Below, in pieces: positions 1 to 55,930 of a DNA stretch of 64,000 bases (position 1 is the first letter of the stretch; the number at the start of each line of letters is the position of its first letter). Below the pieces are notes generated by a model. The model saw only the letters and a list, made by a program, of their open reading frames with translations. It had not been told where the DNA came from and did no database searches. The translations under genes were made by a program, and so were the position numbers. The DNA is from Arctopsyche grandis (lineage: Eukaryota > Arthropoda > Insecta > Trichoptera > Hydropsychidae), in assembly GCF_051622035.1 (NCBI RefSeq), contig NC_135362.1, positions 14,821,501 through 14,885,500 on the forward strand, given 5' to 3'.

Positions 1-2824
1 GTTCGGAGCCAAGACGTCGCAAGTTTTCATTTCAATTTCCAATGTTTCATAGGTTCCTACAAAAGTATAAAGAAACCAGTAGTTTAATAAAACTTAGATT
101 AATCTGATATAAAATTTGCATGAAAAATACCTTTCTTGATTATCTTGGTATACTTTGAATTTTCTTCCATGACGAAATCTGACTTGTCTAAAATATCTTC
201 AAGGAACATTTGCTCTACTGGAAATGTTCGTCCTGAATAAAAAAATATTAATGTTTTATTCACATGAAAAAGTATGTATTTGTAAATATTGGACAATTAT
301 TTACATACCAGGTATTTCCAAGACTGGCACCCCTCCGAAATAGTCCGAGAATAAATTAGCATTTAAAGTAGCGCTCATAAGTATCACCTTCAAATCTTTC
401 CTAGTAGCAAGCAAATCTTTCAAGATCAGTAAAAGAAAATCGCTTTCTTCTGAACGCTCGTGAACCTCATCTACTAATATGTGAGTAACTGATTCTAAAC
501 GAGGGTCGCTTTCTAAGCGTCGCAATAAAATACCTGTTGTGCAAAAGGTGAGACGAGTTTTGGAGGATACTTTACTTTCCAAGCGAATCTGAAAAGGTAA
601 GTATATTATAAATAAATTTTAGCTTGAATTAAGAAAAATTATGGTATTAATAAATATTTTAAGGAAAATACAAATTACCTGATAACCAATAGTACTCCCG
701 GTTCTTTCATTTCTTTCTTTGGCAACTCTGTCAGCTACACCGATTGCAGATATTCTTCTGGGTTGTGTGCATACAATTTCAATATGTGTGTTGTTCGATG
801 TGTTTATTTTATTTAATAACCATTCGTCTAAAATAAATTGTGGAACCTGTGTACTTTTTCCGCATCCTGTTTCTCCACTGATTACTACAATCTAATTGAG
901 AGAGTACATATATTATATCATTTCAAAAAATATAGAAGTCAATCACAACATGAATGTAAATAAATACCTGTGATTTTTCGATGGCGTTTAAAATATCATT
1001 CATCTTGTTCCAAGCCGGTAATTTTTTTCTATCATTTAACATTTTTTTATATTGACTACAACTTTGTTTTTCCATGAATTTTTTGGCAAGAAGAGCATCT
1101 TCTTTTAATGCATTCTCCAAGTCAAATATCATTTTATTATCTCGATTAGATGCTTTTTCATAGTGGGAGGGTAATATCTTCTTTGAGTTTTCCTTACCTT
1201 CCATGATAACGGGGAACAAAGGTTGAAAACCATCGATAAACTTTTTGGTGTTACTCTTTAAAAATGAAAGAATATCCTCTTCATTTTGAACCAAATCCAC
1301 AATAGAATAAACGGAAGGAATACCGTCGCAAGCTAAAACTTCGGCTTCAGTTATTAACCGACGACAAATATGAAGGCATTCCATCTGTGGTATAACATCA
1401 GCAGGTGCAGATGTTTTCAATAATATTATAGGAGACTCAAAAGGATACATCGTGTTGTTTCTGAATTTAATTTCTAGAAAGTAATCATAATTATTAGTAC
1501 CTAAGTCATCACAGACAGATATAACTGGTTCAGGTTTTTCATGTGAAAATCTACATTTGTCACCAAATCTACAAGAACCTTTAGAAAAATTTCTACATAA
1601 TTCAATTTTTTTCGTCTTAAAATTGTTGTTTTTATTATTATAATTTATGTTTTCTTTCCTCGATGTGACAATTTTCTCATTTGTATTATTGAAATGTTTC
1701 AACAAATAACTTAAATTAATTTTGAATTCAAACAACATATTTGGCTCCTTTTCTTTAAAACACGTTTCAAATATAGAATCTAGCACAGCCTTTTCATCAC
1801 TTCTCTGCTCTAATAATTCGTTATGTGATAGTTCACATTCAATTTTCTTAGACTTATCAATATCGTAATATTTGTCATACAGAATTTCTAAAGCTTCGTC
1901 GATTTGCCCGTTTGTATGATCCAAAGCTTCTGCACAATGTGTTTTATGGAAACCATATCTAAAATACACATAAAAAGTTATTTGTTATTATTTTTACCAT
2001 TGCATAATATATGTATGTATGTATATATGTACATCGGAATTAAGAGACACTTACGATTCTAATTTTTTTAATGCAAACATTCTAAATTTATCTTCCGATG
2101 TTACATTATCACTTTTTTTCTTGGAATAATCAAATCCACCTTGGACTACTAAATTACCTCTTTCCATCCAAAATCGATTTCCCAAATTTGCTCCTTTATC
2201 CTATACATTAAAATATATTAGCACTCATATAAATAATCACATATCATATAAAGTATCAACAGATATTTCTGTACCGTGTACTCTGATGAATTTTTTAGCT
2301 CAAAATCTGGACCATAAATATGCCTGAGTGTTTCGAGGATGAGATTTTGTGAATCGCCGCTGAGACGCAATGTTTGCATCTCAACTCTGAGAGTTTGGAC
2401 TGATTCATGTTTCTCTTCTACTTTTTTGCTATAAATAAATACATGTCGATATCACAATATATCGGTATCAAAAAATATTTTATTGTACAACACAAATAAT
2501 AATTTATAATACAACACAAATAATAATTATATAGTCTTACGATAGGTATGAAAACTAGTGATTTTTTAAAATAAATCAGATAAAAACCGTAAAATATCTA
2601 CATAAGTGTAAAATAAATAAATTTCTTATATGACACATTTCTAAATTATGTTGGCATTACTGGGATTGCACAGAATTGTGAAATAGTAACTATTTGCACA
2701 TCTTTTAACATTCATACACAATTAATTGGCGATTTTCGTAAAAAATAAATAATTACCCAATTTTAGCATTAACAGGAGTATGTAGGAAGAAATCTTCGGC
2801 CAATTGCCGAGAACAGCTCTCCAT
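1..2824 (-). CDS. DHX57: DHX57-like ATP-dependent RNA helicase, N-terminal half (runs off left edge)
   Basis: Putative DExH-box RNA helicase of the DHX57 family. Coding exons, 5' to 3' on the minus strand: 2824-2757, 2428-2275, 2200-2055, 1958-968, 891-679, 588-309, 232-131 and 56-1 (open). All joins are GT-AG and in phase, giving about 670 residues of a protein that is about 1390 aa in human. Order seen: a UBA-like segment near residues 115-160 ([12 protein letters not shown]), an RWD-like region interrupted by a CCCH zinc finger (Cys244, Cys252, Cys258, His262), then the helicase core: Walker [10 protein letters not shown] (about 459-467), DEVH (564-567) and SAT (596-598). DEVH in place of DEAH fits this family. 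The start is the first ATG of the first exon ([13 protein letters not shown]). The C-terminal RecA2, HA2 and OB regions lie outside the window. UBA plus CCCH plus RWD in front of a DExH core separates DHX57 from DHX9, DHX29 and DHX36. Confidence 0.93.
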
Positions 2825-8843: not shown

Positions 8844-9193
8844 AGTTAACATATCAAACAATATAAAATGACAATTATTAGGAAATAGAATATAAATTAG
8901 GAAATATATAAATAAATTATAAAAAGATCGCACTATTGTGAATAGTATTCTAAAAAAAATTGGGTCTCTAATAATAAGATACATTTTATTTTGGATATTT
9001 ATATTTGCGCTGTTTTTCGTTTACAAGTTAATCGTTTTGATCACTACGTTTTAATATTTTTTAGGTAGTAAATATTTTGTTTTGTTATTATTACCCAAAT
9101 TTGTGTACATTTTTTAAATTTAGATGTTAGTTAATCGTGAAGAAAAACACGTGTATAGTATTTATTAAATTATATATTTTTTATTTTGTAGAA
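8844..9193. other. Upstream region of the promethin-like gene
   Basis: AT-rich. A pyrimidine-rich stretch ending TTTTATTTTGTAG at 9191 looks like a splice acceptor just before the start codon, so the 5' UTR may begin in an unseen upstream exon. Confidence 0.45.
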
Positions 9194-10352
9194 ATGAGTA
9201 AAGTGGCAGAATGTAAGCATGATCATGAATCACATGACAACCATCAAGATTCACAAGATAATCATGAATCAAAAATTAAGAGTCCTTTGGATTTGTTGAA
9301 AACAGCTGTTAAGTTAGACTTGCCTGTAGATAAGGGTCCTGAAATACTCAAAAAAATATCGTCAGATGCAACGAAAATTGATTTGACAAGTATGAATCTA
9401 GACCTGAAAAAAATCACTACATCGGAATTGGTTAACATTGTAACAGACCAATCCAAAGTCGTTTTGACCGAAACAGTTAAGGTCGAGACAAAAACGAAAG
9501 GATGCAAAAATTGTGAAACATCACACGTAAAAGACAAACAAAATACAAACGGTATCCCTAGCATTGGAGGGGTATTAAATGCTTTAGCTAAGCCATTGGT
9601 TCAGGAAAAAAAGGAGGAAAACGTGAAAGGCGGATCTTCACCAAATGGCAATATTTCAGCAAAGGAGGGCATAAATCCACTTTTCCAAGGATTTGGTTTA
9701 CTTCCTCCACCACCAAAGATTGGAATACCAAATTTGCTAAACAATGACAAAGCTGCCGAATTGCCCAAGCTTGATTTTCCAAAGCTAGGTATCCTTGATA
9801 AAGATCATGGTCCTCCAGCAGCATCTTTTCCAGGATTACCTCTCGATCCCATTGGAATAATACAATCACTTTTAAGTATAAAAACATAATATTTTAATAT
9901 TATAATATAATGATCGTTTTTAAATACTTTTAAAATTTTTATTTTAGTACGGCCGATTCTGAAATTTATGGAGGGAATGTTGGAAAAGGGTTATGGGAAA
10001 TTAAAAGAAATTGCTAAATATTTTGCAGAAAGACCATATCTCGCAATGCCATTGATGGTATTCTTAATGTCTATTCTATTGCCAGTTTTCCTCTTCATCT
10101 TGTTTGCATTCATGACAACAGCCATTGGCTTTGTAGGATTTGTTATAGCCGAAGGTGAGTAGAAATATAAATAAAATAGTTGTATATAAAAATCACAATT
10201 ATTCAGAAGAGACAATTTCAGGCACAGTATTGGCGATGGGAGGCATGGTTCTCACAGCATTTCTTGTTTCGTTTTTTTCCGTTATCTTGATGTTCGTTAC
10301 TACTTATGGTGTAATTTATATTGGTATGAAAACTGTTAAGCTTATTAAATAA
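9194..10352 (+). CDS. Promethin/LDAF1-like lipid-droplet assembly protein
   Basis: Three exons, 9194-9875, 9948-10154 and 10222-10352, join in phase (introns of 72 and 67 nt) to give 339 aa. Residues 1-227 are a soluble, low-complexity N-terminus: His/Asp-rich at the start (KHDHESHDNHQDSQDNHES), then Lys- and Pro-rich. Residues 228-339 form the membrane part: a basic amphipathic segment (EKGYGKLKEIAKYFAERPYL), a long hydrophobic run (MPLMVFLMSILLPVFLFILF), a small-residue turn and a second hydrophobic run ending in a basic tail. This matches the double hairpin of the promethin/LDAF1 family, which acts with seipin at ER sites of lipid-droplet formation. The family call rests on topology and motif impression. 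The ATG at 9194 is preferred because an acceptor-like AG ends three bases upstream. An alternative acceptor at 10207 would add a few in-frame residues. The long N-terminus is unusual for the family. Confidence 0.72.
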
Positions 10353-14538: not shown

Positions 14539-17500
14539 ATGTTTTCTATCTGCCGTCAAAACCATCCAGCAACTGGAATTGAACATGCTGTAAGTTGCTG
14601 CTTCTTCAATTCTGAGGAAAAATGTCTTGTAACGGCTGGTGCTAACATATTGAAAATATTTCGGCTAATACCGGAAGTCGACATCAAAGAAAGACCGATA
14701 GGTACGCTAGTGCTTTGATTTATTTATTTTAATATATGTACATAGATATGTATTATTGATTTTTAAAAACACAATTTTGTAGATGGCAGTGCACCGAAAA
14801 TGAAACTGGAATGCTTAGCAAATTATACACTCTGGGGATCCATAATGTGTCTTCAAACTGTTAAAGTGCATGGTACAGGTGGCGATCTTTTGTTGGTATC
14901 TTTTAAAGATGCCAAACTTGCCGTATTACAGTACGATCCGAACACGCATAATTTGGCCACATTGAGTCTTCATTATTTCGAAGAGGACGACATGAAGGTA
15001 ATTATAAAATGATCTATTATTCAACCATTAAATAGAGCATATTGCAATTGGCATTAACAATTTTATGTTATGATAGGGTGGCTGGACAAGTCATAATCAC
15101 ATACCATGGATACGAGTAGATCCTGAAAATAGATGTTTCGTCATGTTGTTATATGGACGAAAACTCGCTGTACTACCTCTAAGGAGGGAAACAAACGCTG
15201 AAGATAGTGATCTTTTAGAAATGAAGCCTTTAGATACAAAAATGGTTATAACCGTAATATGTACTTTTGTAACTTGGGAATTTTGTAACGTGAAATACTG
15301 ACTTAGATAATGTTTTAGCCTCAACCCGTTTCTTCAAAAGCACCAGTGATGGCATCGTATGTTATAGCTTTAAAAGACCTCGATGAAAAAATCGATAATG
15401 TTATTGATTTGCAATTCCTTCACGGCTATTATGAACCGACTCTTTTACTTTTGTACGAGCCAGTGAGGACTTTTCCTGGGTTAGTAATAAATAGAAGGTA
15501 ATTGATATTTTTTATGCATTGTAATTAAAATTTTATTTTATTTCGATTAATAGACGTACAGCTGTAAGAATGGATACTTGCGCTATGCTCGGTGTGAGTT
15601 TAAATTTGCATGCTAGGGTACATCCGTCTATTTGGGCTGTTACCGGATTACCTTTCGATTGTGTCTCGGCAGTTCCCATTCAAAGACCTCTCGGTAAACC
15701 AATAGATTTATTTTAAATCCAAATTTTTTAATGAAGCAGTATGTTGATTAAATTTTTAATTTTATAGGTGGATGCTTGATATTAGCAGTCAACTCTGTAA
15801 TATATCTCAATCAATCGATTCCGCCATATGGAGTATCATTAAACAGTGCCGCTAATCATTCAACCAATTTTCCTTTAAGTATGTGCTTATTATTGATCAT
15901 AACGCACTGTTTAATTATTATTTTTAATGGTGTATTTTCAATTTTTCGCTTACAGAAATACAAGAAGGCGTGTGCTTGACTTTGGAAAGTGTTTGTGTTT
16001 CTACTTTGGGTCCACAGAAGTTAGCTTTGTCCCTCCGTAGTGGTCAATTATACCTTTTGACTTTATTGGCTGATTCCGTTAGAAGTATCAGATCATTTCA
16101 CTTCGATAAAGCTGCTGCTAGTGTACTTACAACATGTGTAAGTTATTATTTTTGTCTATTAATCGACAACTATTGAATCGAATATTTGATTTATTAATTG
16201 CATTTTCAGATGTGCATTTGCGAGGACAGCTTCATGTTTCTCGGATCTCGTCTTGGTAATTCACTCTTGCTTAAATTTAGCGAGAAAGAACGACATACCC
16301 TGACTCAAGTTGAACGACCAACTGCTACAATCGATTTAACAACAGAAGGTTAATTTTAAATAAATAATACATATATGAATGAATGCATACTTATTATTCT
16401 TTTAATAATGTTTATTTATGTTGTCAGAATCAAGTTCAAATGCTAAGAAACGTCGAATGGAATCTTTAAGTGATTGTATGGCATCAGACGTCCAAGACAT
16501 TCGTGATAAGGATGAATTAGAAGTATATGGTTCAGATAAGCGAACATCGACTGAATTGACTACTTATATGTTTGAGGTCAACATTCAACTGTCTTTAATT
16601 GTTTTTTCTTATCATAGATCTTCCAATAAATTTTATATGATTTATAGGTATGTGACAGTCTTTTGAACATTGGCCCCATTGGTGATGTTTCTATGGGTGA
16701 ACCTGCTTTTCAAGAAGCAGCAGCTGCCGGTGGCGTTGAACTCGTAACTACTTCAGGCTATGGCAAAAATGGAGCTCTTTGCGTTCTACGTCGCAGTGTT
16801 CGACCTCAACTCGTCACTACCTTTCACTTACCTGGTTAGTATAATGCTAAATCGAATAATGTTTGTATCATTTTTAGTGTATATTTAAATTCATTTTAAA
16901 TTGTTTAGGTTGTATCGATATGTGGACTGTAATCGGTGAATTACACGGCCAAAATGAAGCAAATAAAAATGATGTTCAGGATAGTGAAGGCTCTCATTCG
17001 TACATGCTACTGTCTCAAACGGATTCTACAATGGTATTTCATATAATAATTATGGTAATATATACAAAATTGCCAATTTTATATTCATGAATTTTTTTTT
17101 AGGTTTTACAAACCGGTGAAGAGATCAACGAAGTTGACAATTCAGGATTTTCCACTCAATCGCCTACTATTTTCGCTGGAAATCTCGGAAACAATAAATA
17201 TATAGTTCAAATTACATCTGTGGCGATTAGATTAATCAAAGGTTAGTTTATTTATTGTAGTATAATATACATATATATGAATGTATAGTAATTTTATTGG
17301 TATATTTTAGGAAGCCAACAAGTGCAACATATACATGTAGATGGCGGAGCTATTGAGGCTGGAGTTGCCGATCCGTATGTGTGTGTATTGACTGGAGCTG
17401 GTCGTATACTTGTATTGGCACTACGTGAGGCCGCACGAGGAACTGCTCGTTTGGCAGCTTTACGACATTCTCCACCAGCAACGCCACCAGCCGCTCGTTG

Positions 17501-20500
17501 CTGTGCTTACCGAGATCTTAGTGGATTGTTTTCGAGTTCACCCATCAACATCGATGTTTCTAATGTATGTACTAGTGTGTGCATGTATTTTATATTAATA
17601 ATTTTAAATCATGAGATTATTTTATAGATTAAAGGAGAGAATGTCGTCAAAAAAGGAATGAAGCCTCCTAATCGCAATGTTAAAAACGAAGGAGCAAAAG
17701 ACAATCCTGATGTCATTCATGATATCAATGATGAGGACGATTTGTTATATGGTGGAGATCAAACGCCAGCGTCTATGGTGTCGGTTAGTATATTTAGTAC
17801 GACTTTTTACAGAATCTAAAATAAAATTTTGTTTTAATTTATTAATATATAATTATTTTGTTGATAGTTAATGCAAACAGAAAGAGGACAACGGGAAGGT
17901 GTAACGGTGCATTCACGCCGAGATTGGTGGCGGCGCCACTTTATAGATCACAAACCGACATATTGGCTGTTTGTTGTGAGGAGTAATGGAAATATGGAAA
18001 TCTACTCACTTCCAGATATGAGGTTGAGTTTTCTAGTGCGTGGTGTTATAAATGGCGCAAAGGTTTAACTTTATATTATTAGTAATACGAAATAATTAAT
18101 TTTTATATTCTCAAGAGATTAATTGTCATTGCGTTTATTTCAGGTTTTGATGGATAGTTTAGAATCTGTACCTGAAATTATAGGTCAAACTTCGAATGAA
18201 GATTTGATTAGTGGATTGGATGACCACGATTCTATGCAAGGTGCTCTTAAAGAAATTATGGTTGTAGGACTTGGCAACAAAGGCTCTCGACCGTTATTGT
18301 TCCTCAGAACTGAAAACGAACTCATGATATATCAAGTAATTGATGGTTTAAAAAAGCAATATTCTTTTATATAATAATATTCTGAAATATAATCTTATAT
18401 TTATAGGTATTCCAATATGCAAAAGGGAATTTAAAAATGAGGTTCCGACGGTTACCTTTAGGTTTGCCACGCATTCCAGTTTCGAATGAAAATGTTGAAG
18501 ATGCATCTTCTGATAATTCGAATATCAAAAAGAATGTGAAAAAACTACGCTATTTCGGTAATTTAATATAGTCCAATAAATATGTAATTTGTTTTTTTGT
18601 ATATCAATTTATTTCATTTATTATGTAATTCAAGGAAACATCGCTGGTTATAATGGAGTGTTCGTATGCGGATCGCCTGGACTATGGATATTATTGACTC
18701 CTCGAGGTGAACTTCGTTGTCATCCCCATGCGACTGCACAAGAAGATTCGTTTGTATCTATATTTGCTCCATTCAACAATGTCAATTGTCTGCAAGGATT
18801 CCTTTATTTTAATATTGAAGTATGTAAAAAATTTAAAATTATTTCTTATAAAGGTTATATGTAGTTCAAATCTAAATTTATCTAACGTATTTTCGTTATA
18901 GTCGGAGTTGAGGATTTGTGTGCTGCCTACCCATTTGACATATGATGCTCCCTGGCCTGTAAGGAAGGTTCCATTGCGAACCACTCCACATTTTGTGACG
19001 TATCATTTAGAATCAAAAACATACTGTGTTGTTACGTCACAAAGTGCACCCACAAAAACGTATTATAAATTCAATGGTGAAGACAAAGAACTATCTGATG
19101 AAACGGCCAAAGGAGAGAGGTTTGTTTTTGTAATATGTATGTATTTGTTTTGTTGTTGTTCAGGAGTGTTGTAACATCTTTTTTTATTTGTAGGTTCCCA
19201 TACCCAATGCAAGATAGATTTTCCATAATGCTTTTCTCTCCAGTATCTTGGGAAATTATTCCAAATACTAAAATTGAATTAGAAGAATGGGAGCACGTCA
19301 CATGTTTGAAAAATGTCAGTTTAGCATACGAAGGAACAAGGTAAATTCAAAAGATTTTGATTCATTTCAATCATCAGTGATTTAGTTATTAATCGAATAA
19401 TTTTATTTTAGATCTGGACTCAAAGGCTATATCGCCTTAGGTACAAATTATAATTACAGTGAAGATATAACATCTAGGGGAAGAGTTAGTTAATTTATTC
19501 ATTCTTGTTGATGTATTCGTTATCGTTTAAATACCTGATATTTATTTTTTGCTGTAGATTCTTATTTACGACATTATTGAGGTTGTTCCTGAACCAGGTC
19601 AACCATTGACTAAAAATCGGTTCAAAGAAATCTATGCAAAGGAGCAAAAGGGACCGGTGACTGCTATAACGCAAGTTCTTGGATTTTTGGTATCGGCTGT
19701 AGGACAAAAAGTAATATATTATATCATAGAAAACATGCAAATAAAATGCACAGGTAAGATGTTAAATTTATATTTTGAAAAAATGTTTCAGATTTATATA
19801 TGGCAACTTCGAGACGGTGACTTAGTCGGAGTTGCATTTATTGATACACAGGTCTATGTACACAGAGTATTATCTGTAAAGAGTATGCTGCTTGCGGCTG
19901 ACGTTTACCGATCAGTAGCTCTGATGAGATTCCAAGAACATCATCGTACACTGTCTTTGGCTGCTCGTGATATGCGCACAGCACAAGTATGTAAAATGAA
20001 ATAATTACGTTGAAAATATTATGTTTACTAAATTTTAATGCTTTATTGGATTTTTAGGTATTTGATGTTGAATTCATGGTCGACAATTCAAATTTAGGCT
20101 TTGTAGTCTCAGAAATTGAAGGAAATTTTGTACTTTTTATGTATCAACCTGAAGCAAGGGAGAGTTTCGGAGGTTCGTTCCTTCATTTGTAACATTTTAG
20201 TTCGATAAAAATATGTGTTCATAATTTTATAATATTTGTAGGTCAGCGGTTAATACGAAAAGCTGATTATCATTTGGGACAAAAAGTCAATTGTATGTTT
20301 AGAATTGCTTGTTGTTCTTTACCTGAACAGAGAGATGATGCGGCTTTGAATGTGTCAGATAAAAGGCACTGTACTATGTTTGGTATGTGTGGCTAAATGA
20401 TAATCTCATGGATTTAGACTTATTTAATTTTAATTAAAATATTTTTATTTATTGATTTATATAGCGACGCTTGATGGTGGATTGGGTTATATCTTACCAT

Positions 20501-20934
20501 TGTCGGAAAAAGTGTACAGGAGACTACTTATGTTACAAAATGTAATGAACAACTACTGTTGCCATTTGGCTGGGCTGAATCCAAAAGCACATCGGTATGA
20601 TTTGTAACTTAATTTTTTTTAAATTATTTTATTGGATATGTATTAAGTTTTATTGCCTTTTTGTTATTAGAACTTACAAATCGGCGAGAAAACTCGTCGG
20701 TGGACCTGCAAGAGGTATATTAGATGGAGATCTAGTTAGTCAATTTTTGTATTTACCACAAAATGAGAGATCAGAGGTTAGTCATTTTATTAATATTATG
20801 CATTATTTTTTATTTTTAATTATCTAATTCTCAATTTTTTTTTTAAATTTTAGATCGCCAAAAAGATTGGTACCAAAGTAGAAGAAATACTTTCGGATCT
20901 CATCGAAATTGATAAATTAACTGCTCATTTTTAG
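14539..20934 (+). CDS. CPSF1: Cleavage and polyadenylation specificity factor subunit 1 (CPSF160)
   Basis: Complete gene: 28 coding exons, all GT-AG and in phase, 1459 aa (human 1443). Exons: 14539-14701, 14783-14997, 15077-15253, 15319-15479, 15554-15693, 15768-15878, 15956-16137, 16210-16348, 16428-16576, 16648-16834, 16909-17033, 17103-17241, 17311-17564, 17628-17783, 17868-18062, 18144-18335, 18407-18557, 18635-18819, 18902-19119, 19194-19340, 19412-19484, 19558-19710, 19792-19986, 20058-20172, 20242-20382, 20465-20594, 20671-20776, 20854-20934. CPSF160 is the scaffold of the mPSF module that, with WDR33 and CPSF30, recognises AAUAAA. Conserved blocks: [39 protein letters not shown]-type, [42 protein letters not shown]-type, [53 protein letters not shown] and C-terminal AKKIGT...LTAHF. 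The variable acidic linker after residue 430 carries KKRR, a likely nuclear signal. Exon 9 uses an atypical donor, GTCAAC. No frameshift or internal stop. Confidence 0.97.
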
Positions 20935-21465: not shown

Positions 21466-21921
21466 TTATTTCTTCAGATTATTGTCGATTACGTCCGGAT
21501 TGAACGTGTTGTCGAGCTCGAACCCATGCACGTGCATGTACGGCGTGGTGAACTCAGGACAGGTCTTGAGCCAGAATGGATGCATCTTCCCCTCCGTTGC
21601 TAGACACTCGTTAGCACAGATCACTTCAATGTTATTATCCTGTAAAATTTCACATATAACTCGCTGCATTTGCATATTTACACATATACATATGTACATA
21701 CATATCGTCATTATACCTTATAACAATGAATGCACGTAAAGATGCACCTGTCAACGGGATCCATCTGTGGTGCGACTGCATAAGCATGAGACATGCTGAA
21801 CAATGAAAGTACCAGGACGAAGATCATCACACTTCCTATAAATATATTCGATATTAATGTATGCGTTATCATTGAGTGATAATTGTTATTTGTTTTTATG
21901 CGTACCGGAATGATAAGCCAT
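21466..21921 (-). CDS. Eclosion-hormone-like secreted six-cysteine peptide
   Basis: Three exons on the minus strand, 21921-21906, 21835-21717 and 21639-21466, join in phase to 102 aa. Residues 1 to about 23 are a hydrophobic signal peptide (MIFVLVLSLFSMSHA core). The mature part has exactly six cysteines: Cys36-x3-Cys40-x2-Cys43-x9-Cys53-x3-Cys57-x14-Cys72. The C-x3-C-x2-C block after an acidic DPVDR lead-in, the C-x3-C block and a following EGK tripeptide correspond to insect eclosion hormone (CIENCAQC, CAESC, KGK). The spacing differs: 9 rather than about 12 residues between Cys3 and Cys4, and 14 rather than about 10 before Cys6. A His/Phe/Asp-rich tail of about 30 residues follows, with no obvious dibasic cleavage site. 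Eclosion hormone triggers ecdysis through a receptor guanylyl cyclase; whether this divergent form does so is unknown. It could instead be another short secreted cystine-rich peptide. Confidence 0.72.
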
Positions 21922-42144: not shown

Positions 42145-43751
42145 ATGGATTCTAGAAATATCGTACGTGATCCTATATACATACATATGTACATATATAA
42201 CTGCATTATTCCCGATTAGTGTGATAACTGATAAGTGTACTGGTGCAAAACGGACTCTACATATCCATATATAAAATCCTGAATAATAATATACTTGCAT
42301 ACATATGTTCTTACTATGTGAATGTGAATAATAGTGATCATATCATATATAGAGTGAATCAAGTTATATATAGGTATATATATATAATTGATGTGTGTTA
42401 AAGTGCTTTGAATTTTTTTCTGTTGAAAATTGGATCATATATATGTCTTCTTCAATCCTTGGGGCCTAGCGGCTTCTCTCGGTACATTTGAAAGCTATCA
42501 AATATTTACATTTGATACATTTACTCGAATATTTTATTAATATAATATTTGCTTTGTTATATCTGAGAAAAACCTCAAAAGTTCGATGATACATACAATT
42601 TTCCATTTCATTTGTATTGCTTCTGAAATACCAATCCATGGAATGTCCCACCTTTTCTGTGAATATTACTGTTTGGCTTTTTTTCTTTTTGATAATATCA
42701 ATAAAATTTTCTTTGAAGTCTTCTTTCACTCTCATTCTCCGAACATGCTTAATCACGAACTTTTAGCTAAAGGAGATTAACGATATATCGATATTAAAAT
42801 AACTCTACCTGGACCTATTCCGGCACTTAAAGCTAGTGAAAAAAAATATATAATTACTTTTAAGTATATAAAAAACTGAAAAAATATATATTAAACAATT
42901 TAGCACTTACATTTACCGAGCACATATGTACATAAACGGTTCATGCTTGAGATTAAATCGTAACTTGTGTTTGACGTGTCGTTAAGTTTCCTTGTAAGTG
43001 TACTAAGTTTTGCACCATTGACTTATGGGGGCGCTAATAACGCCAATTACCGCATTACATTAAAGGGAATGGTGTTCATGAAAGTTTCCCTATAAACATA
43101 CATACGCACATAAATTTATAGAATTTAATTACATATGTGATTTCATGTGTGTATTTTCTTTTACAGTTGCTCTCATTGACTATCATCAGCATTGGTCTAC
43201 TCCAATGTCAAGCTTTCCCAACATTGGAAGCATACCAAGCCCAATGGCACTCACTGGCAGGATCCCACAATGGTGGATATGGTGGGTACGGTCACAATTT
43301 TGATCAACAGCCATCAGCTTCATCTTATGAAGAAGAAGGACACGATTTCGGCGGTTATGGACATTCAGGATACGAAGATCACTCGTATCCAGTCAGCGAG
43401 CATGTTGAAGTTTCCAAGCCAGAAATCATCCCACAGTACAAGCACGTGCAAATTCCAATCCACAAGACGTTCAACATCCACGTACCTCATCCCATCTTGG
43501 TACCGGTGCCCCATCCTTACCCAATCCAAGTCCCGGTCAATAAGCCAGTTGCCGTACCCATCGTCAGGGAGATTCAAATTCCTATTGAAAAGATTGTCCC
43601 GTATCCAGTAGAGAAGAAGGTTCCTTATCCGGTCGAAAAGAGAGTACCATACACTGTTGAAAAACACGTGACTGTCCACGTAGACAAGCCTTATCCAGTT
43701 AAAATTCCAGTAATCAAAACCATCTACCATGAATCCAAAGGAGGTCATTAA
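42145..43751 (+). CDS. Secreted Pro/Val/His-rich cuticle-type structural protein
   Basis: Two exons: 42145-42162 codes only MDSRNI, and after a 1004-nt intron (GTACGT...TTTTACAG) 43167-43751 codes the rest; total 200 aa. The join completes a signal peptide ([16 protein letters not shown], cut near residue 22). The mature protein has a Gly/Tyr/His-rich part with GGYGGYGH and [13 protein letters not shown], then a long Pro/Val part with alternating short motifs such as [20 protein letters not shown] and a run of [20 protein letters not shown]. It has no Cys after the signal region and no Rebers-Riddiford chitin-binding consensus that I can see. A tiny first exon ending inside the signal peptide plus a TATA promoter is the usual layout of insect cuticle genes. 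A low-complexity cuticular or egg-covering protein is the best guess; the exact family is unresolved. Confidence 0.85.
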
Positions 43752-51304: not shown

Positions 51305-52894
<1,590 letters not shown>

Positions 52895-52897
<3 letters not shown>

Positions 52898-55800
52898 TCA
52901 TCATCATCATTTACAGCCATTCGCCATCCACTGCTGGATGAAGGCCTCTCCAACACGCTTCCACTCGTCTCTGTTTTGCGCAACACTCATCCATCTCATT
53001 CCGCACATTTTCCTAATTTCGTTCACCCATCTTCCTTGCGGTCTTCCTTTTACTCTTTTGCCTTCTCTCGGGTACCATTCAAGCACTTCTTTTGTCCACC
53101 TTTCGTCCATCCTCCTAGCTACGTGACCCGCCCATTGCCATTTCAATCTCTTCACTCTATCCACTATGTCCACTACCCTTGTCATATTTCTCACCCACGT
53201 GTTCCGCTTCCTGTCTTTCCTCGTTATGCCAAGCATACAGCGTTCCATACTTCTTTGAGTGCATTGGATTTTATTTTGCATCTTGGCGTTCAGTGTCCAA
53301 GTTTCACATCCATACGTCATCACTGGCAAAACGCATTGATCAAAGATCCTTTTCTTCAGGCAGAGTGGCATTTTTGATTTAAAAACAGCATTCATCCGTC
53401 CAAATGCACTCCACCCTAATTTCATACGTCTCTTTATCTCTTCATTTTTACTACCAGACATGTCAATTATTTGACCTAAATATAAATAATTATTTACTAC
53501 TTCTACTGGTTTATCATCTAAGGGGATGCTATCAGGCATGCAATAACTATTGAACATTAGTTTAGTCTTATCTACGTTAATTTTTAATCCTACTTTTCTA
53601 CTTTCCCTGTCCAGCTGTGTTAGTCTGATAAGTAGGTCAGCTGAATCACGAGCTACTAGAACTATATCGTCTGCGAACCGAAGGTGACTCAAAAAGCGAC
53701 CATTGATGCTTACTCCGGCTGTATCCCAATCCAATTTCCTGAAAACTCCCTCAAGCACCGCATTGAATAACTTGGGCGAGATTGTATCTCCTTGTCTTAC
53801 TCCTTTTCCTATGCTAAATCTATCTGTACCTGAAAAAATTTTAACCGAAGCTGTGGCATTCTTATATATTGCAGCTAACAGTCCCACATAGGTTTCCGGC
53901 ACTCCCTGTGTTTTTAGAGCGTTAAGTACTGCATTATGACTAACTGTATCGAAGGCTTTCTCATAATCGACGAAACCTAGGCACAATGGCCGTTGATATT
54001 CGTTGGCGCGCTCGATTAGTTCGCCAACTACTTGGAGGTGGTCCATTGTGCTGAAATTTGCCCTAAACCCTGCCTGCTCTACAGGTTGGTTCTCGTCGAG
54101 GATATTCTTCAGCCTTTCTGTAATAACCTTCGTGAAGAGCTTGTAGACCGCTGAAAGTAGACTAATGGGTCGGTAGTTCTTGATATCGCTTTTGTCGCCT
54201 TTTTTGTGTATTAAAATGATAGTTGCGTTATTCCATCCTTCTGGTATAGCTTGGTTCTGGATGCATTTGCTGAAAAGCCTAGCTAAGATATTAATTAGGG
54301 GGGGGCCGCCACATTTTAGTAAGTCAATGGGAATATTATCTTCCCCTGGGGATTTACCGTTCTTTGCAGTTTTTAGCGCGGCCTCTACTTCGCTAGGCAA
54401 TACTGCAGGAACCCTTTGGCCGTGTGTCGATTCCAGAGCGGGGAATTGGCCGTTGTCGTTCTCGTATAGTTTTGCATAGAACGTGTAAACTCTGTCTATG
54501 ATTTCTTCTCTATTCCTAATTATTACTCCGCTCTCTGATCTGATTGCGATCATTTGGTTTTTGCCTAAGGAAAGATCCTGTTTGCACTTTTTCAGGCTAC
54601 GGTTATTCTTAATGGTATTTTCTATTAGCTTGCTGTTAAAATCCCTGACATCCCTGACTATTCTCTTTTTAATTTCCTTATTTACTAGATTGTATTCTTG
54701 CTTATTATTATCCCTATCTAAATTCCTTTTATGCTTAATTAGGTTTTTTGTTTCCGCTGAAATTTTGCTTAATTTAATCTGTTTCCTGAATCCACCTAAT
54801 TTCTTACCTGTTGAGGTTAGAACCGAACTAATTACAGTGTTCAATTCCTCGATGTCTGCTTCTGGGTTTAATTTCCCGTATCGATTTCCAAGTTCGAGTT
54901 CGAATTCCTTTTTCCTAGACCTTAGTTGAGCGAAATCTGGAGAGTTACTGCATCCTTTTATTAATTTCCTACGTTCGCAATTTATATTAATGGCCATCTT
55001 GGCACGGACTAATCTGTGATCGCTACCTATATCTACTTTACTTAAAACACTAACGTCTTTAACGGAGTGCAGGGCATTTGTTAGGATGAAATCGATCTCG
55101 TTTCTGTCTCCTTTAGGACTCTCCCAAGTCCACTTATTGTTGGTGTTTTTCCTGAAAAATGAATTAGTGATAAAGAGCCTGTTGTGTTCTGCGAATTCTA
55201 TGAGGCGATCGCCTCTGTCGTTTCTTTGGCCGGTACCAAAATTGCCTACTGCTCTTTCAGTATTTGCCTTTTGTCCTATTTTTGCGTTAAAGTCGCCCAT
55301 GATTATTTTAAAGTGGTGACGGCTATTATCGTATGCGTCCTGTATTTTTTCGTAGAAGTCTTCTATTTCCTCGTCTGGGTGGCTAGATGTGGGGGCGTAC
55401 ACTTGGAAGATTTGACAAGTGTACCTGCTCGAGATTCTTAATACTATATAGCATATACGTTCCGATATGTCGCTTATTTCTATAATATTTCTTTCTATTC
55501 TCTTATTGATAAGAAACCCTACTCCTCCTATTCTACCATTTGGTAGCCCTCTCCAGTAGAGACAGTTACCACTTTTTAGGATTATTTGGTTTTGCTGTTT
55601 TCGTCTTACTTCACTAAGTCCTATTATATCCCATTTGATATTTTCTAATTCATTCTCTAATGCAAGCACACTTCCTTCACTCGATAACGTTCTTACATTG
55701 TACGTGGCTAAATACAGGTTTCTATTAGCTAAGCTATCATCCATCGTCACTCTTACCTTGTTGGAGGTTTGGATATTATTTTTCTCGCATTTATCCAAGA

Positions 55801-55930
55801 TGTGTTGAGAAAAAGGCGGTACTTGAGAGAGATTTCCATTCAAGGAGTGAGTTCTTACCGCCATAGACTCTTCTCTGTGGTCAGCTTTGACAGATAGTCA
55901 TCCTAGGTATCACTTGGATCACTTATGAGT
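52895..55930 (-). mobile_element. RTE-type non-LTR retrotransposon, apparently near full length
   Basis: One long ORF (52907-55864) ends directly in a (TGA)n tail inserted beside a (TA)n array, the 3' organisation of RTE elements. The 5' boundary is not defined by sequence; 55930 is an estimate that allows a short 5' UTR. No target-site duplication can be called because the 3' flank is TA microsatellite. Confidence 0.75.
52907..55864 (-). CDS. RTE LINE polyprotein: apurinic-type endonuclease plus reverse transcriptase
   Basis: 985 codons with no stop or frameshift. N-terminal endonuclease about residues 50-290: TYNVRTL, catalytic Glu in GLSEVRRK (E85), [16 protein letters not shown] (about 189-197), NEIDFILTN and GSDHRLV (280-286). 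Reverse transcriptase about 500-800: [47 protein letters not shown] and the catalytic FADD near residue 729. The C-terminal region carries [20 protein letters not shown] and a basic RTE-type tail with WAGHVARR and GRPQGRW. All catalytic residues I can check are present, so the product could be active. The stop TGA is the first unit of the tail repeat. Shorter plus-strand frames across it are antisense shadows. Confidence 0.93.

Follow-up and report, generated by a model that had tools for sequence, protein, structure and literature searches.

The question raised by this locus is whether a short gene on the minus strand of the window (the whole 64,000-nt stretch of Arctopsyche grandis DNA that was analysed) encodes a relative of eclosion hormone (EH), as an earlier note on this DNA suggested, or a secreted cysteine-rich peptide of another kind. 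The proposed exons, when joined (Table 1), give 309 nt and 102 residues with no internal stop, and their translation reads MAYHSGSVMIFVLVLSLFSMSHAYA up to the predicted signal-peptide cleavage and VAPQMDPVDRCIFTCIHCYKDNNIEVICANECLATEGKMHPFWLKTCPEFTTPYMHVHGFELDNTFNPDVIDNNLKK beyond it. The earlier note had described a three-exon gene encoding 102 residues; the length was reproduced, but the 16-nt first exon is neither needed nor established. The frame of the signal-peptide exon is open upstream to 21980, across all of proposed intron 1, and contains ATG codons before the signal peptide, so that two coding exons suffice. The EH gene of Antheraea pernyi is described in a passage of PMC8396664 as having two exons and a single intron; the position of the intron within EH genes is not stated in the literature passages that were searched. 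An alternative in-frame acceptor for the last exon lies 24 nt upstream (intron end at 21664, exon start at 21663) and would insert RVICEILQ, which brings the number of cysteines to seven; compared with the main acceptor it has the weaker pyrimidine tract (0.35 vs 0.53), and its use would leave an intron of only 53 nt.

Table 1. Positions of the elements of the candidate gene and of other features in the window.
Feature	Position	Strand	Remarks
Proposed first coding exon (optional)	21906..21921	-	ATG GCT TAT CAT TCC G; unproven
Proposed intron 1, 70 nt	21836..21905	-	GT-AG, GTACGC...TTTATAG; G+C 0.243
Exon encoding the signal peptide, the mature N-terminus and Cys1-Cys3	21717..21835	-	VAPQMDPVDRCIFTCIHCYK; colinear with Manduca EH; weak by codon table
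Intron 2, 77 nt, phase 0, two residues after Cys3	21640..21716	-	GT-AG, GTATAA...TTTTACAG; G+C 0.286
Last coding exon (Cys4-Cys6, C-terminal tail, stop codon)	21466..21639	-	DNNIEVICANECLATEGKMHPFWLKTC...NNLKK, stop; third-position G+C 0.655
Possible poly(A) signal, AATAAA	21076..21081	-	by eye; about 0.39 kb past the stop codon
CPSF A subunit region	19558-20001	+	PF03178 (Pfam), 89.6 bits; gene frames 17292-20934
Non-LTR retrotransposon	52907-55897	-	996-residue open frame; endonuclease and reverse transcriptase (PF03372, PF14529, PF00078)
252-residue frame	9131-9889	+	no Pfam match; His/Asp-rich start, Pro-rich C-terminal half
Val/Pro/His-rich repeat protein	43122-43751	+	secreted-looking, cuticle type by eye; no Pfam match
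RWD domain and CCCH zinc finger	923-1984	-	PF05773, PF00642

Base composition separated the two main exons (G+C 0.445 and 0.471) from the introns (Table 1) and from the flanks (0.329 on the 5' side and 0.265 on the 3' side). Third-position G+C over the whole candidate frame was 0.592 in an AT-rich region, a value matched or exceeded by 2 of the 364 stop-to-stop frames of at least 50 codons within the window; none of the 364 reached the 0.655 of the last exon. A codon table was derived from five other stretches of the same window, and by this measure the best segment of the last exon scored 13.0 bits, which was equalled by 42 of 1123 window frames and by 32 of 11,290 frames drawn from random sequence. 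The best segment of the signal-peptide exon scored 7.9 bits (equalled by 176 of the 1123 and 619 of the 11,290), and no frame of the candidate gene was listed when the window was scanned for genes with this table at a threshold of 18 bits. The last exon is well supported as coding sequence, the exon that precedes it weakly. Given the signal-peptide-like start and the six ordered cysteines, the likeliest reading of the sequence is that the gene is real.

The predicted peptide has a hydrophobic stretch near its N-terminus (best 11-residue Kyte-Doolittle mean 3.2), followed by the junction of AYA and VAP, a good signal-peptidase site as judged by eye from the residues at -3 and -1. By the hydropathy profile and the cleavage-site residues, the latter assessed by eye, the candidate appears to have the signal peptide expected of a secreted EH. 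Of the seven CxxxCxxC motifs found when the window is translated in six frames, that of the candidate is the only one judged by eye to follow a signal-peptide-like stretch. Its full cysteine pattern is C-x3-C-x2-C-x9-C-x3-C-x14-C, and the EH order of cysteines (C-x3-C-x2-C...C-x3-C...C) noted previously is indeed present. In all five EHs compared (Manduca, Bombyx, Drosophila and two shrimp) the spacing is 3-2-12-3-10. Since every one of them has x12 between Cys3 and Cys4 and x10 between Cys5 and Cys6, the earlier statements that the first of these loops is shortened in the candidate (9 residues) and the second lengthened (14 residues) hold, and in both loops the candidate departs from EH. The Drosophila sequence used here agrees with the one printed in a passage of PMC12393706; the spacing of both shrimp hormones, EH II included, follows from cysteine positions printed in a passage of PMC11641175.

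The likeness is not confined to the cysteines. A GK said to match that of EH was borne out, as it stands in the context C-x4-GK-x2-P at the same distance from Cys5 as in EH. Two patterns are common to the candidate and Manduca EH, namely C-A-x2-C-[IL]-x3-G-K-x2-P and D-P-x3-C-I-x2-C-x2-C-x-K, the second of which includes a D-P before Cys1. The candidate resembles both moth hormones (Manduca and Bombyx) in its signal-peptide start, in the order of its six cysteines and in a Phe three residues past Cys6; C-A-x2-C is also common to all three, and G-K-x2-P lies equally far beyond Cys5. In contrast, the EH segment that reads KMLGxWFEG in Manduca, with a similar one in Bombyx and Drosophila, is missing, and the tail is longer, giving 77 mature residues vs 62 in EH. 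This C-terminal tail had been called Phe/His/Asp-rich; the tail is there, but the label is a loose one, as the 30 residues after Cys6 contain 3 Phe, 2 His, 3 Asp and 4 Asn.

The conserved non-cysteine residues of EH (C-A-x2-C, G-K-x2-P) were accompanied by an alignment that was strong with Manduca EH, weaker with Bombyx EH and marginal with Drosophila EH. Local alignments were compared with 5000 shuffles in which the cysteines were kept in place, at gap costs of 8/1 and 11/1. At 8/1 Manduca EH scored 76 against 35.3 +/- 8.1 for the shuffles; its score was reached by 0/5000 (8/1) and 1/5000 (11/1), and the corresponding counts, with the scores at 8/1, were 12 and 34 for Bombyx EH (score 64), 216 and 207 for Drosophila EH (51), 356 and 148 for ITP (44) and 237 and 174 for trissin (37). 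At 11/1, therefore, Drosophila EH was no better than ITP or trissin (207 shuffles vs 148 and 174). Around the cysteines, two ungapped blocks were picked after the alignment had been seen; in these, non-cysteine identities came to 8/25 for Manduca (reached by 2 of 100,000 shuffles) and to 7/25 for both Bombyx and Drosophila (30 and 56 shuffles respectively). A single BLASTP comparison with Manduca EH, signal peptide included, gave E = 9e-7. When the window was searched by tblastn with Manduca EH, the two main exons were the two best matches (E 0.003); the Bombyx query found the last exon only (E 2.2, behind five other matches) and the Drosophila query the last-exon region only (E 1.4, behind two others). 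Two pieces that match mature Manduca EH in the right order scored 45.1 bits together, which none of 200 second-order Markov windows reached (best 39.6), and the best single piece was reached in 1 of 200 random windows.

The curated Pfam Eclosion family, PF04736, did not match the full protein or its mature part at E values up to 10 (HMMER filters on), and the EHs of Manduca, Drosophila and Bombyx, run as positive controls, scored 119.1, 112.7 and 116.7 bits. The earlier note had proposed that kinship be given up if an Eclosion match was lacking and another cystine-rich family matched better; the former was found but not the latter, as the candidate matched no other family in Pfam. A profile built from the three EH sequences scored 19.4 bits with the signal peptide included (E 7e-4 for 15,000 proteins) and 13.6 bits with the mature part alone, which 3 of 2999 cysteine-fixed and 0 of 2978 full shuffles attained; the higher value therefore partly reflects likeness between signal peptides. 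EH kinship is thus favoured by residues beyond the cysteines, strongly for Manduca, less so for Bombyx and marginally for Drosophila, but not by the curated profile. One strong and two weaker pairwise likenesses make it probable, short of proof.

Other database matches were set aside. Among solved structures the best found was a KAT6B chain (6oie) at E 1.6, and Manduca EH itself matched none at E up to 1. The NCBIfam model YtzI matched the signal peptide (residues 8-34) at 17.9 bits, below its cut-off of 33, and the ahbC deacetylase model scored 11.4, below its cut-off of 650. Searches for relatives by pattern found no match in viral contigs; in bacterial and archaeal genomes 15 stretches fitted the pattern, of which none was confirmed. 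A literature text search with six strings, two of them from the candidate peptide, returned a match for the Drosophila string only.

One alternative is that the gene belongs to an unrelated family of six-cysteine secreted peptides, with a role in defence, cuticle, reproduction or a gland, that has converged on the C-x3-C / C-x3-C spacing of a helical hairpin. The missing Eclosion match and the altered loop lengths would fit such an origin, as would the cysteine-fixed shuffles that reached the mature-only profile score and the standing of Drosophila EH beside ITP and trissin at the stiffer gap cost. However, the non-cysteine identities with Manduca EH exceed chance, and neither another Pfam family nor a solved structure better than that at E 1.6 offered itself as a relative, so that we regard convergence as possible but doubtful. 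Two named families were considered as parents and rejected. ITP/CHH resembles the candidate in its C-x2-C and C-x3-C spacing in mid-peptide, but its first cysteine gap is 15 residues vs 3 in the candidate, its profile (PF01147) matched an ITP sequence at 115.2 bits and the candidate not at all, and the likeness to ITP was weaker at both gap costs (z 1.67 and 2.36, vs 5.0 and 5.13 for Manduca EH). Trissin aligned less well than the Manduca and Bombyx EHs.

Two further explanations accept the kinship with EH. The candidate could be the sole EH of this genome, an orthologue in a fast-evolving lineage rather than a paralogue, and tblastn with the three EHs does find no canonical EH within the window. 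Yet the five EHs compared, from moth, fly and shrimp, all keep 3-2-12-3-10, and a sole EH devoid of the KMLGxWFEG loop would be unexpected; we consider this very unlikely. Another possibility is that the locus is a pseudogene, a decaying EH duplicate, or a gene model that arose by chance, and is not expressed. The donor sites (GTACGC and GTATAA) look weak by eye, the first exon is uncertain, the codon score of the signal-peptide exon is weak, and a passage of PMC6585902 reports that the second EH of the beetle Hycleus, which lacks a donor site, is probably non-functional now. Against this, 102 codons run without a stop or frameshift, third positions are rich in G+C amid AT-rich surroundings, and the six cysteines and the signal-peptide-like start have all been kept, and we regard this explanation as highly improbable.

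We propose instead, with moderate confidence and from sequence comparison, that the locus is a working gene for a divergent homologue of the EH family, a secreted and disulphide-bonded peptide with altered loops and an added tail. In the course of its divergence from canonical EH the Cys3-Cys4 loop would have lost three residues (12 to 9) and the Cys5-Cys6 loop gained four (10 to 14), and the C-terminal tail would have been added. The gene would be expressed, its product cleaved after AYA and the terminal KK trimmed. In Manduca EH the disulphides join Cys1-Cys5, Cys2-Cys4 and Cys3-Cys6, and the same pairing in the candidate would yield a helical hairpin. The disulphides predicted for the shrimp EHs differ (1-4, 2-3 and 5-6, in a passage of PMC11641175). 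The receptors of EH belong to the membrane guanylyl cyclases, and a passage of PMC12393706 gives CG10738 as that of Drosophila. The candidate peptide is probably secreted and a ligand for some receptor guanylyl cyclase; once released it may bind a cyclase of the EH-receptor type, upon which cGMP would rise.

The divergent homologue is probably not an exact duplicate of EH, because its altered loop replaces the KMLGxWFEG of the moth hormones, and it may act on a paralogous or relaxed receptor, at another time or in another tissue. Since the insect EHs compared retain a segment of the KMLGxWFEG type, an altered receptor fit is plausible; a literature search on the functional residues of EH found nothing among the matches listed. 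A more far-reaching version, in which a neofunctionalised EH paralogue with rebuilt receptor-facing loops serves a different receptor guanylyl cyclase or a role outside ecdysis and founds a new branch of neurohormones, is one that we put forward tentatively and think unlikely. As five EHs from shrimp to moth keep their spacing, a relative with altered loops would be a natural experiment in the fit between ligand and guanylyl cyclase. If the proposal is correct, the peptide might be the ligand of one of the receptor guanylyl cyclases that have no known partner; if it were merely one more decaying EH duplicate, it would have little significance.

Duplication of EH has been reported repeatedly, and a diverged second EH would therefore not be new in kind. 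Passages of PMC4237046 give two EH genes each for locust and termite, and suggest that the copies are recent in Locusta, Danaus and mosquitoes but old in termite, Tribolium, Nilaparvata and Diaphorina. Most beetles have two EHs (a passage of PMC6585902), and a centipede has two EHs and two receptors, most other arthropod genomes having single copies according to a passage of PMC4244043. Decapods generally have two, with Carcinus EH-2 not considered a bona fide neuropeptide (a passage of PMC13234976), and a table in PMC4926255 lists one EH for the moth Chilo suppressalis. If the candidate is a paralogue, these second EH genes (EH-2) of arthropods would be among its closest known counterparts; shrimp EH II keeps 3-2-12-3-10, unlike the candidate. 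Novelty would lie in the altered loop lengths; no report of such changes was found in the text passages of the literature, alignments in figures and supplements aside. Eclosion hormone was not mentioned in the caddisfly papers that a literature search found, and the term 'eclosion hormone 2' did not occur among the matches listed for Lepidoptera.

The candidate gene runs towards the plus-strand CPSF A subunit gene, a housekeeping gene, and the stop codons of the two are about 0.5 kb apart. We take the latter to be, very probably, CPSF1/CPSF160, and read its later frames, up to the stop at 20934, as the end of CPSF160; one frame within it (20579-20824) had no Pfam match. An Rfam scan of the whole window gave 0 matches. 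The combination of RWD domain and CCCH zinc finger near the start of the window is presumably that of DHX57-like helicases. The 252-residue frame had a coding score of 86.7 bits, although it belonged to the training set of the codon table. The genes present, with the Val/Pro/His-rich protein of cuticle type, suggest an insect. A long TA-rich microsatellite (about 52600-52900), which reads as Tyr-Ile repeats in several frames, adjoins the retrotransposon frame on its downstream side.
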